Assembly (NCBI GenBank): GCA_016214695.1
Contig: JACRNY010000001.1
Location: forward strand, 806,001 to 870,000
DNA length: 64,000 nt
Direction: 5' to 3'
Source: Nitrosomonadales bacterium
GTDB lineage: Bacteria; Pseudomonadota; Gammaproteobacteria; Burkholderiales; Gallionellaceae
Shown: in pieces, positions 60,784 to 64,000 of the stretch
Layout of the letters: every line of letters starts with the position of its first letter
How positions within the stretch are numbered: the stretch's first letter is position 1
Position numbers and translations under genes: made by a program
Notes under the pieces: generated by a model
Told to the model about the DNA's origin: nothing
Seen by the model: the letters and a program-made list of their open reading frames with translations, nothing else
The model's database searches: none

Positions 60784-61263
60784 TTAGGCGCCGAGGATGC
60801 CTTTGCCTGCAGCAGGAGCAGCTTTCGCTACAGCCTTCTTGGCAGGTTTTTTAGCTGCTGCTTTTTTCGCTGCCGGTTTCTTGGCGGCTACTTTTTTGGC
60901 AGCTGGCTTTTTGGCTGCTGCTTTTTTCACTGCCGGTTTCTTGGCGGCTACTTTTTTAGCGGCTGGCTTCTTGGCTGCTGCTTTTTTCACTGCCGGTTTC
61001 TTGGCGGCTACTTTTTTGGCGGCTGGCTTCTTGGCTGCTGCTTTTTTCACTGCCGGCTTCTTGGCGGCTACTTTTTTGGCGGCTGGCTTCTTGGCTGCTG
61101 CTTTTTTCACTGCCGGTTTCTTGGCGGCTACTTTTTTGGCGGCTGGCTTCTTGGCTGCTGCTTTTTTCACTGCCGGTTTCTTGGCGGCTACTTTTTTGGC
61201 GGCTGGCTTCTTGGCGGCGGCCTTCTTGGTGGTGGTGCTTTTTGCTTTGGTTGTTGCAGCCAT
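60784..61263 (-). CDS. Histone H1-like Lys/Ala/Pro-rich DNA-binding protein
   Basis: 159 aa consisting almost only of Lys, Ala, Pro and Val. After [20 protein letters not shown] a 20-residue unit ([20 protein letters not shown]) is repeated about six times, then [18 protein letters not shown]. Highly basic, like AlgP and the H1 homologues of Bordetella/chlamydia; probably binds and compacts DNA. The ATG at 61263 has AAGGA at 6-bp spacing, whereas the one at 61269 has it directly adjacent, so 61263 is preferred. Confidence 0.9.
60841..61220. repeat. 60-bp tandem repeat (six full units) in the H1-like gene
   Basis: Units 60841-60900, 60901-60960 and so on to 61141-61200 are nearly identical, then a 20-bp partial unit. 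Period is exactly 60 bp, a multiple of 3, so gain or loss of a unit keeps the frame and changes the protein by 20 residues. Confidence 0.95.
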
Positions 61264-61434
61264 TTTCATTCCTTATAAAAATTGATGGACTAACCAGTTA
61301 CAACTTTGCGTGCACCAACTGCACTCCCGATGCGTCTTTCTAGTACTTGAAATCTCCCAACACGCACGGTGATTGCATTCTATGCGCGATTAAAAAAATT
61401 GCGCAACACTTTTGTGCATTATTTGCGAAAAATT
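61264..61434. other. AT-rich gap between lysA and the H1-like gene
   Basis: 171 bp, much AT-richer than the surroundings. TGCGCGATT...AATTGCGCA (61383-61405) forms an imperfect hairpin that could end the lysA message. The promoter of the H1-like gene must lie here; I cannot place it. Confidence 0.5.
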
Positions 61435-62682
61435 TCAAGTGACGATCTTCTCCGAAGCATAGAGCTGGCGCACTGTTTCGCGCTCCCGGACAAGGTGCGT
61501 GACCGCACCGTCAACCATCACTTCGGCTGCGCGCGGTCGCGTGTTGTAGTTGGAACTCATGCTCATTCCGTATGCTCCCGCCGACATCACGGCAAGCACA
61601 TCCCCCGCCGAAACGCCCAATTGGCGGGCATGTCCGAGGAAGTCGCCGGTCTCGCAGATCGGCCCGACCACCTCATAGAGCTGGCTTGCAGCAGCACTCT
61701 TGCGGACCGGCTGAATGGCATGGAAAGCATCGTAGAGCGCCGGACGCATGAGGTCGTTCATCGCCGCATCGACGATGGCGAAGTTCTTTTCTTCCCCGTG
61801 TTTGAGATATTCGATGCGGGTCAGCAGTATCCCGGCATTGCCGACCAGCACCCGCCCCGGCTCGACGATGATCTTCTCGGAGCGCCCTTTGAGCGCTCCC
61901 AGCAGAGCCTGCGCGTATTCGGCGATGGATGGCGGCATCTCATCGTCATAGCGGATACCGAGGCCGCCGCCCAGATCCAGATGTTCCAGAACGATGCCCG
62001 CGGCGGCCAGCCGGTCGACCAGTGCCAGCACCTTCTCCGCCGCCGCGATGAAAGGACTGGTTTCGGTGAGCTGCGAACCGATGTGGCAATCCATGCCGGT
62101 GATGCGCAGATGCGGCATGGCCGCCGCCCTGCGGTACAGCTCGAACGCCTCGGTATAGGCTACGCCGAACTTGTTCTGCTTGAGACCGGTAGATATATAA
62201 GGATGGGTCCTGGCATCCACATCCGGGTTCACGCGCAGGCTGATCGGAGCCACCTTGCCCATGCTGCCCGCCACTTCGTTGAGCCGGTCCAGCTCTGACG
62301 GAGATTCGACATTGAAGCAAAGGATCTCCGCCTCCAGCGCCTGACGCATCTCGCTCTCGCTTTTGCCGACACCGGAGAACACCACTTTGCCTGCCGCGCC
62401 GCCAGCTGCCAGCACGCGCTGCAGCTCGCCGCCGGAAACGATGTCGAATCCCGCCCCCATGCGGGCAAAAAGATTAAGGATGGCGAGATTGGAGTTGGCT
62501 TTCACCGCATAGCAGATGAGATGTTCGCGACTCTTGAACGCTTCCGCGAACTGGCGATAGCCGTCGGTCAGCGCGGCACGCGAATAAACATAACAGGGGG
62601 TGCCGAAGCGTTGCGCGATCTCTTCCAGCGCGACATTCTCGGCATGCAGGCGATCTTGCTGATGATTGAAATATCCGTTCAT
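61435..62682 (-). CDS. lysA: Diaminopimelate decarboxylase
   Basis: 415-aa PLP enzyme, last step of lysine synthesis. PLP Lys61 in CYAVKANSN, HIGSQLTETSPF, GGGLGIRYDDE, EPGRVLVGNAGILLTR, and GPICETGDFLG near the end with the active-site Cys. Start at 62682 overlaps the lptM stop by 4 bp (ATGA). The frame extends far upstream only through lptM and the divergent gene. Confidence 0.97.
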   Translation of the reverse strand: MNGYFNHQQDRLHAENVALEEIAQRFGTPCYVYSRAALTDGYRQFAEAFKSREHLICYAVKANSNLAILNLFARMGAGFDIVSGGELQRVLAAGGAAGKVVFSGVGKSESEMRQALEAEILCFNVESPSELDRLNEVAGSMGKVAPISLRVNPDVDARTHPYISTGLKQNKFGVAYTEAFELYRRAAAMPHLRITGMDCHIGSQLTETSPFIAAAEKVLALVDRLAAAGIVLEHLDLGGGLGIRYDDEMPPSIAEYAQALLGALKGRSEKIIVEPGRVLVGNAGILLTRIEYLKHGEEKNFAIVDAAMNDLMRPALYDAFHAIQPVRKSAAASQLYEVVGPICETGDFLGHARQLGVSAGDVLAVMSAGAYGMSMSSNYNTRPRAAEVMVDGAVTHLVRERETVRQLYASEKIVT

Positions 62683-62822: not shown

Positions 62823-62865
62823 TTTGTCTTTCTAGCGAATTGAAAATCGGAACGAGCAGGATTAT

Positions 62866-64000
62866 ATGACGGAAAGCACCAAGCACGAGCCGGGCAGCGC
62901 ATTGTTCGCCCGCATCCAGCAGATGGTCGACGAGCGCGGCGTCGATATCCGCCCGCATCTGAGCGGCCATGCACTGCGTCTGGATTTCGCCGATGGGCAG
63001 CGCATCCTGATCAATATCGACCCGCAGACGCACAATGTGTGGGTGGCTGCACGTTCAGGCGGTGTCGAATACATCCATCATGATGGCCTGTGGCAGGCGC
63101 ACGACCATGGCGAGCTCTTCGCCAGACTGCGCGAACTCATCGAGCTGACCATCGCCAGCAATCCGCTCAATGCCCGCGCACCCGTGACCCAGCCGCAGCA
63201 AGCTCCCGAACATCCCGAACCCGCGATCTATTACGAAGCGAAGCAAAGTCACTGGCTGCGCAACGCGCTCATCATCCTGCTCGCCGGCATGATCGGTTTT
63301 TGGGCTGCACAAAGGCTGAATCCCCCGCAGGAGAAGACGGAGGAAGCGAAGCCGCAGCCGGATACCGTCTCGCTCAGCCAACTCGATCCCGGCCAGCAAT
63401 GCGAGGGCGGCTTTCCTGCCAATGGCAGCATCACCGTATTCCCCGAAAGCGGTTTGCGCACCGACGAAGTGAGCGACCCCGAGATCACCCTCCGGAACGA
63501 CCATGCCCATCCTGTGCTGCTGATCCTTTCTCCCCCCAACACCGTCATCCCCTCCATGTCGGTGCTGATCCACGCCAGGCAAAGCATCAGCCTGCACCTG
63601 CCGGCCGGGCAGTACGGCATGATGTTCGGTGTCGGCAGTGCGTGGTGCAATGCGCGGCGCGGTTTTTCCGACGGACAATTCCTGAAGTTCGACAAGTCGC
63701 TGAGCGTGGAAACGGACAAACCGATGCAGCTGACCCTGCAATCTTCCGGCCCCGGCATGGAGGATTTCCAGTTGTTCGTCAGAACCGCCGCTCCCGAAGT
63801 GGCACTGCCGCCACCGACCTTCGCCGGCGACGGCAGCATGGAGGTGCAGCGCCAGGCCAACGGGCACTTCTACCTGCCCGGCACGATAGAGAACGTCCCG
63901 GTCACCTTCATGGTGGATACCGGCGCCTCGGTCACCTCCATCTCCAGCGACATCGCGCAGCAGGCGGGCATCCGCAATTGCAAGGAGGTGCAATTCCAGA
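62866..64000 (+). CDS. Frataxin (CyaY) domain fused to a membrane-anchored retropepsin-like aspartic protease, 3' end cut
   Basis: 378 codons visible, one unbroken frame. Residues about 9-90 match CyaY: HALRLDFADGQRILINIDPQTHNVWVAARSGGVEYIHHDGLW and a C-terminal helix GELFARLRELIELTI. The acidic first helix that binds iron in CyaY is weaker here (MVDERGVDIRPH). After a Pro-rich stretch a membrane helix (about 130-148, NALIILLAGMIGFWAAQ) leads to a beta-rich segment with two Cys (about 183 and 260) and then a clan-AA protease start with TFMVDTGASVTSISSDIA, catalytic Asp351. AGGA lies 6 bp before the ATG. In relatives cyaY stands divergent from lptM-lysA, as here, but alone. Confidence 0.85.
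   Translation, partial: MTESTKHEPGSALFARIQQMVDERGVDIRPHLSGHALRLDFADGQRILINIDPQTHNVWVAARSGGVEYIHHDGLWQAHDHGELFARLRELIELTIASNPLNARAPVTQPQQAPEHPEPAIYYEAKQSHWLRNALIILLAGMIGFWAAQRLNPPQEKTEEAKPQPDTVSLSQLDPGQQCEGGFPANGSITVFPESGLRTDEVSDPEITLRNDHAHPVLLILSPPNTVIPSMSVLIHARQSISLHLPAGQYGMMFGVGSAWCNARRGFSDGQFLKFDKSLSVETDKPMQLTLQSSGPGMEDFQLFVRTAAPEVALPPPTFAGDGSMEVQRQANGHFYLPGTIENVPVTFMVDTGASVTSISSDIAQQAGIRNCKEVQFQ

Follow-up and report, generated by a model that had tools for sequence, protein, structure and literature searches.

At the end of the window, by which we mean the whole stretch of 64,000 nucleotides analysed here, G000:C2:806001–870000, we identified a single open frame for a protein of 439 residues in which a frataxin domain is followed by a single hydrophobic segment, a domain predicted to be a beta-sandwich, and a retropepsin domain with the motif DTGAS (Table 1). 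Residue comparisons indicate that the frataxin domain has switched class: its acidic ridge is mostly lost, and its surface was changed and then kept. As our best, still tentative explanation, to which we give somewhat less than even weight, we propose that a frataxin-derived cytoplasmic interaction domain governs a periplasmic retropepsin, with the sidedness, ligand, substrate and signal all presumed.

Table 1. Coordinates of the fusion gene, its parts and its divergent neighbour in the window.
Feature	Position	Strand	Remarks
Fusion gene	62866..64000 in the window, plus 185 bases past it including the stop codon, to 64185	+	439 aa; orthologues; begins with ATG at 62866, extends past the window end, stop at window-equivalent 64185 (L001:168–1487)
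Frataxin (CyaY-derived) domain	62902..63144	+	Residues 13–93, Pfam
Predicted membrane segment, single, after an H-x-x-R-N motif	63253..63315	+	Residues ~130–150
Middle domain, predicted beta-sandwich	63394..63816	+	Residues 177–317; Cys179 and Cys261 in 29/29
Cys179	63400..63402	+	29/29; putative disulphide with Cys261, pairing presumed
Cys261	63646..63648	+	29/29
Retropepsin-like domain (clan AA, TIGR02281)	63838..64000, continues past the window	+	Residues 325–439
Catalytic motif DTGAS	63916..63930	+	Residues 351–355
Cys372	63979..63981	+	29/29; putative disulphide with Cys387 (past the window), pairing presumed
lysA	61435..62682	-	Divergent neighbour of cyaY in examined fusion-free loci

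The fusion had been predicted from the sequence of the window, and comparison with other genomes bore it out. From 39 full-length loci we set aside 10 identical proteins, which left 29 distinct sequences, one per genome and the window's included. Because all 29 keep the frame intact, we exclude an artefact of the fusion; a missed frameshift, a stop codon and an assembly error were thereby ruled out. The same architecture was found full length in 29 of the 150 genomes of the family, namely in 26 of the 34 genomes of the window's genus and in three of genus g24. It was also present in 10 loci from records labelled Sideroxydans, Gallionellaceae, Nitrosomonadales or Gammaproteobacteria, with several proteins identical to those of the window's genus, and on this basis we call the family Gallionellaceae. 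We found no description of a frataxin-retropepsin architecture in the open-licence PMC literature, which is a weak negative.

The remaining genomes of the window's genus differ among themselves. Three of them (G001, G018 and G024) hold a fragment of the C-terminal end of the fusion just before cyaY; this fragment lies at a contig end in G001 and G024, and presumably also in G018. Two others (G002 and G011) have cyaY beside lysA with no fusion, and in the incomplete genomes G007, G009 and G129 neither fusion nor cyaY was found. Two frataxins in one genome were observed in 4 of 189 frataxin-bearing genomes (300 sampled from the order), all four of the window's genus, and only in the window's genome among 62 frataxin-bearing genomes (299 sampled from the phylum).

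The N-terminal region of the fusion protein matches the Pfam family Frataxin_Cyay (PF01491) over residues 13–93, with 33.5 bits for the whole protein and 37.6 bits for residues 1–110 (cut-off 21.3), and the scores of the 29 full-length fusions range from 29.8 to 48.3. A search of PDB sequences with residues 1–110 returned CyaY structures (4jpd, E 1.3e-9; E. coli 1ew4, E 4.2e-7), in agreement with the predicted frataxin homology. With the CyaY equivalog TIGR03421 the fusion scores 48.6 bits, under the cut-off of 53.25, whereas the neighbouring canonical cyaY (PF01491, 91.4 bits) reaches 108.4. The full-length model, calculated from 10 sequences with the L034 protein (81% identical) placed first, was poor (mean pLDDT 47.6). 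Within this low-confidence model residues 10–98 form a helix, five strands and a helix, with ten-residue pLDDT means of 54–83. APRc and CyaY headed the Foldseek list for the full model, in which CyaY 1ew4 and 4jpd had probability 1.00 and E ~6e-3, so that the alpha-beta sandwich fold of frataxins was recovered.

We compared the 29 fused domains with 55 canonical CyaY proteins, using E. coli CyaY numbering. Frataxin has been described as binding iron through the acidic ridge on helix 1 and strand 1 (PMC8962269). Acidic residues occupy E5 in one and D11 in seven of the 29 fused domains, compared with 54 of the 55 CyaY at either position, in a stretch of helix 1 (positions 5–11) where the alignment is less sure than in the remainder. 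The corresponding counts are 4/29 versus 52/55 at E18, 7/29 versus 55/55 at D22 and 1/29 versus 55/55 at D31, which confirms the weak ridge noted in the original prediction. Position 40 is Lys or Arg in 26/29 fused domains and Glu in 50/55 CyaY, position 70 is Glu in all 29 and His in all 55, and Arg82, present in all 55, falls in a gap in 26/29; position 47 is Gln in every fused domain. The net charge lies between -1 and -7 in the fused domain and between -8 and -15 in the 26 adjoining cyaY copies. Other features are retained, including Trp61, Trp78 and Ala63 (each 29/29), Asn52 (28/29) and acidic residues at D29 (25/29), position 3 (27/29) and D45 (29/29).

The partner face of human frataxin has been described as including N146, W155 and R165 (PMC8962269). 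At the equivalent positions the fusion retains Asn52 and Trp61 and carries Glu in place of His70, the counterpart of R165 in a correspondence that we mapped by eye. With most of the ridge acids lost, Asn52 and Trp61 kept and His70 replaced by Glu, the iron side of the domain would be largely gone and the partner face kept but recharged. A surface that is changed and yet conserved suggests a role different from the normal one of frataxin, in line with the earlier idea that the frataxin fold may be reused. Iron sensing through the classical acidic ridge, as first envisaged, is disfavoured because most of its acidic positions are lost.

The window ends within the fusion, which had been thought possibly the only frataxin of the cell. 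This is wrong for the window's genome: a canonical cyaY of 103 residues begins 13 bases after the fusion stop codon, and the cell has two frataxins. The locus had also been taken for the normal place of cyaY. It is indeed the usual site beside lysA, but here the fusion and cyaY occupy it in tandem. At the 12 loci of other genera that were examined, lysA and cyaY are divergent neighbours and no fusion separates them. Among the 26 cases in the window's genus, cyaY follows the fusion at a distance of 8–15 bases in 24; the exceptions are L012, where it lies 105 bases downstream, and L049, where the two genes overlap by 14 bases. In G102 (L054/L095) the fusion and cyaY lie about 1.5 kb apart, and the intervening DNA has a 474-codon frame on the same strand whose start looks like that of a secreted protein.

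The ATG start codon of the fusion is immediately preceded by GATTAT (62860..62868 with the ATG), which on the minus strand, toward lptM-lysA, reads TATAAT. The sequence GATTATATG is found at the start codon in 25 of the 26 fusions of the genus and AATTATATG in L014, and a clear Shine-Dalgarno sequence is not evident by eye. Because GATTATATG is likewise found before cyaY at 5 of the 11 loci from other genera (L060, L061, L066, L071 and L074), the fusion seems to have retained the old cyaY start. Elsewhere in the window, the minus strand at 60784–61269 encodes a 161-residue protein built of repeats, which presumably resembles histone H1-like proteins.

We then considered the fusion against the Fe-S assembly systems of the 150 family genomes, across which the presence of CyaY tracks the Fe-S system. 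A canonical cyaY was found in 96 of the 108 genomes with a strong NifU_N match (E-value stronger than 1e-40), a class designated IscU- or NifU-type which cannot separate IscU from the NifU N-domain (the window's own genome, G000, has both kinds of frame). It was found in none of the 35 genomes whose NifU_N matches were all weak (SufU-type), and 33 of these genomes lack any frataxin; one further genome was ambiguous and six had no NifU_N match. In two fusion carriers, G079 (100% complete) and G106 (85%), the fusion is the only frataxin found, with no cyaY. Both have SufB/D and lack IscX and any NifU_N match of IscU strength; IscX was absent too from the three other g24 genomes tested. Their weak NifU_N match lies ~1.4–2 kb from SufB/D, and because of this proximity we call it SufU. 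Outside these two genomes the fusion occurs alongside ISC, and SufB/D was not found in 10 of 11 sampled carriers of the window's genus. There is therefore no Fe-S scaffold system common to all sampled carriers, and the fusion, which G079 and G106 carry without signs of ISC, is not bound to that system.

In G079 and G106 the fusion resides at another locus, beside genes read as ubiG and gph, and their frataxin domains form a group (100/99) with those of two loci from the window's genus, L041 and L042. Based on this, the fusion likely came to both genomes by transfer, which may have followed the loss of ISC. The frataxin domains of this pair have a dN/dS of 0.12, a sign of constraint whether the fusion survived in these genomes or was acquired. 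Since the Bacillus frataxin works with SufS/SufU (PMC4934914), the fused frataxin may, by analogy, share a desulphurase.

The sole-frataxin genomes bear on the proposal that the fusion simply does the job of CyaY. We regard this as extremely unlikely: G079, which is complete, and G106 are the cases that favour it, but no CyaY job seems left in genomes of the weak NifU_N class, given that none of them has cyaY and nearly all are free of frataxin, and every one of the 26 full-length carriers in the window's genus has cyaY too. A sensor of iron or Fe-S status working by the classical route, in which the domain would bind iron or ISC proteins and control the protease, is improbable, although less so. 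The frataxin homology, the conserved Trp61 and Asn52, the position directly before cyaY in 24 of 26 cases and the relationship to Sideroxydans, which are iron oxidisers, agree with such a sensor. Against it stand the mostly non-acidic E18, D22 and D31 and the invariant change of His70 to Glu, even if D29 and D45 stay acidic, and also the fact that the carriers G079 and G106 have SufB/D and no NifU_N match of IscU strength, while 10 of the sampled carriers were free of SufB/D.

The C-terminal domain of the window protein matches the clan AA aspartic protease family TIGR02281 over residues 325–435 with 76.8 bits (cut-off 57.95), and Pfam aspartyl protease families match residues 338–424 above their cut-offs. 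Together with a hydrophobic core present in 29/29, this upholds the predicted joining of frataxin to a hydrophobic segment and a retropepsin. Among PDB sequences the C-terminal part was related to the Rickettsia retropepsin APRc (E 4.7e-9). All 29 aligned sequences have NLLG as the hydrophobic-hydrophobic-Gly motif. DTG is present in 26/29 and is replaced by DTD in L015 and L016 and by DPD in L049. These three form a group nested among members with DTG (94/85, a support that the tool does not star), so the loss of DTG is most simply explained by one event, and all three are probable pseudoproteases. An apparently separate retropepsin, 33–41% identical to the fusion protease, is encoded elsewhere in six genomes of the window's genus (G010:C23, G003:C1, G018:C33, G023:C1, G012:C24 and G005:C50).

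Between the frataxin and middle domains, a hydrophobic core of 15 residues (134–148) has a mean hydropathy of 2.34 in the window protein and at least 1.95 in all 29. The core is preceded by RN in 27/29, His129 is also found in 27/29, and the low-confidence full-length model places a helix at residues 130–150; the frataxin domain is without a hydrophobic stretch (best window 1.06). Signal peptides and membrane segments were called by eye and from hydropathy values. Lys and Arg residues beside the segment (2.14 before versus 1.59 after) weakly favour an N-in orientation and are nearly uninformative. Exactly four cysteine columns are invariant in the 29 sequences (179, 261, 372 and 387), all of them C-terminal to the segment. 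Conserved disulphide cysteines have been described in periplasmic retropepsins, as for RloA (PMC12239564). We infer that the fusion is probably a single-pass inner-membrane protein with a cytoplasmic frataxin domain and a periplasmic, disulphide-bonded sandwich and retropepsin. That the segment is no membrane helix and the whole protein cytoplasmic is very unlikely. The shortness of the segment and the 19-residue hydropathy scan, which peaks more strongly within the middle domain of several sequences including the window protein, lend this alternative some weight. It is opposed by the conservation of the core in every sequence, by the placement of all four cysteines, a mark of periplasmic retropepsins in the cited account, beyond the segment, and by the Sec-like signal peptide of a protein of the same kind described below.

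The middle domain matched no Pfam family in the five isolated stretches scanned (L004, L038, L040, L054 and one within L022), and its alignment retrieved no relative among PDB sequences. Its model (pLDDT 74.5) resembles Ig- or transthyretin-like sandwiches, with the PepT2 ectodomain (Z 9.9, rmsd 2.5, 91 aligned) and the C-terminal domain of AlgF (Z 8.8, rmsd 2.2, 88 aligned) as examples. Such Z values are common according to the tool, and we therefore claim no family for this domain.

In a tree of the 29 fused frataxin domains and 55 CyaY proteins, the fusions form one clade (100/99) within the CyaY of the family (93/87), and the nearest group is a part of that CyaY (98/92). Given the few columns of the tree (103) and the tool's warning of long branches meeting at L054, the exact sister relationship is uncertain; cyaY of G002 (L027) was left out because its open frame exceeded the length filter. 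The G102 version (L054) is the first branch of the fusion clade, and its start, MTESDFNEL, is still CyaY-like. One candidate intermediate, L074, was rejected: its tblastn match, which extends to residue 130, crosses a stop codon, and the cyaY frame there closes at 97 residues.

When 399 genomes of the order were searched with a middle-domain profile, 10 gave a match: four that carry the fusion, four of genus g16, G399 from another family, and G433, whose weak match (E 2.2e-4) we took as chance. The proteins of g16 (G039, G328, G416 and G472) and G399 are unfused. Like the fusion they combine the middle domain with a DTGA retropepsin, and all five have the four conserved cysteines, whereas a short N-tail with a membrane segment, or a signal peptide, replaces the frataxin domain; in G399 the start reads as a Sec-like signal peptide. 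The sole further match in 369 genomes of the class, in G684 (L115), has an N-tail, a membrane segment and the middle domain, and its frame stops before any protease. Neither the CyaY profile nor that of the fused domains matched any of these six unfused proteins; both profiles were built from the very sequences that they then scored, so that their separation of the two classes is descriptive and not a test. These comparisons support an origin in which a cyaY duplicate arose inside the family and became the N-terminus of a module that also exists alone, with the normal cyaY staying behind.

Selection was estimated by a simple counting method from the 131 of 406 pairs with a whole-protein dS below 1. 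In the 90 of these pairs with intact DTG, the median dN/dS was 0.225 for the frataxin domain (highest 0.59), 0.233 for the middle domain (highest 0.48) and 0.18 for the protease (highest 0.37); for cyaY copies it was 0.147 (65 pairs). In the DTG-less L015, L016 and L049 the protease has a dN/dS of ~0.33, both among themselves (three pairs) and against the rest (38 pairs), and the frataxin domain a median of 0.276 (three pairs). The protease domain of these members thus appears looser but still constrained. A decaying duplicate or chance read-through without function would fit the long stem and branches of the fusions relative to CyaY, the absence of the fusion from G002 and G011 and the single pairs that reach 0.59 in the frataxin domain. 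However, with medians far below 1 in each domain, residues invariant within the clade and 29 full-length sequences keeping the frame, this reading appears largely refuted, and we consider it scarcely credible.

The main rival to our best explanation is that the frataxin domain is a tether or adaptor, not a sensor: it would hold or position the fusion at a partner in the cytoplasm, and the protease would act, or in one clade only bind, independently of any signal. We consider this possible, if rather unlikely. The three members that lost DTG while their frataxin domain stayed constrained point in this direction, as does the existence of the same module without frataxin elsewhere. In contrast, 26 of the 29 proteins retain DTG, and the frataxin domain has invariant surface residues of its own, seemingly more than a bare tether would need.

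In the explanation that we prefer, regulation of the protease by the frataxin domain, the latter would bind a cytoplasmic partner or ligand through its exposed sheet. Binding would determine whether the protease domains dimerise or how concentrated they are locally, and the state of the cytoplasm would thereby control cleavage in the periplasm. It is improbable that this partner is the ISC machine or that iron is sensed at a classical acidic ridge. The active site of RloA lies at the dimer interface (PMC12239564), and for a retropepsin built in this way the frataxin domain could therefore set protease dimerisation. By this analogy, a cytoplasmic domain that joins chains or holds them apart would be the simplest coupling of both ends. 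More specifically, and with slightly greater reserve, we suggest a neofunctionalised frataxin outside Fe-S assembly: the ISC-independent cytoplasmic input of a one-protein transmembrane retropepsin switch, with a ligand that differs from that of CyaY. The three DTG-less members, the poor full-length model, the weak Lys/Arg asymmetry, the fusion-free G002 and G011, the retention of some acidic residues and the different locus of the gene in G079 and G106, with its likely transfer, count against the preferred explanation.

Frataxin deficiency causes Friedreich's ataxia, and the role of the frataxin surfaces is still argued. The fusion would offer a natural separation of two of these surfaces, since the ridge is mostly lost and the sheet tryptophan retained in a domain borne by a membrane protease, and the unaltered cyaY copy in the next gene provides a built-in control for the changed frataxin. 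In G079 and G106 a fused frataxin domain is under constraint without ISC. If our model is true, the fusion would represent a retropepsin of bacteria in which a cytoplasmic input domain can be recognised and its ligand looked for directly.

Among known systems, the fusion resembles CyaY and frataxin in its fold and core (Trp61, Trp78, Ala63, Asn52 and the GG turn) and in its descent from the CyaY of the family. It differs from CyaY in the attached membrane protease, the mostly lost ridge, the change of His70 to Glu, the gap at Arg82 and the sub-cut-off TIGR03421 score. With the bacterial clan AA (DTGA) retropepsins of TIGR02281 it shares the score and DTGAS, whereas frataxin and beta-sandwich domains lie ahead of its protease. 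The best PDB relative of the fusion protease is APRc of Rickettsia (PDB 5c9b and 5c9f), which is not known to have a frataxin domain. APRc is also a membrane-anchored retropepsin, with a predicted N-in, C-out orientation, but it has three predicted membrane helices and is reported in the outer membrane (PMC4140852). RloA of Pseudomonas is an exported, dimeric retropepsin with an N-terminal signal peptide, unlike the fusion (PMC12239564), and is not known to have a membrane-attached cytoplasmic domain. In layout alone the fusion corresponds to the SpoIIGA type, with an input part, a membrane part and a retropepsin in one chain, although the input part of SpoIIGA differs from frataxin. The protease domain of SpoIIGA faces the cytoplasm. 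This membrane-embedded aspartic protease of Bacillus subtilis has been called signal-transducing (PMC4140852).
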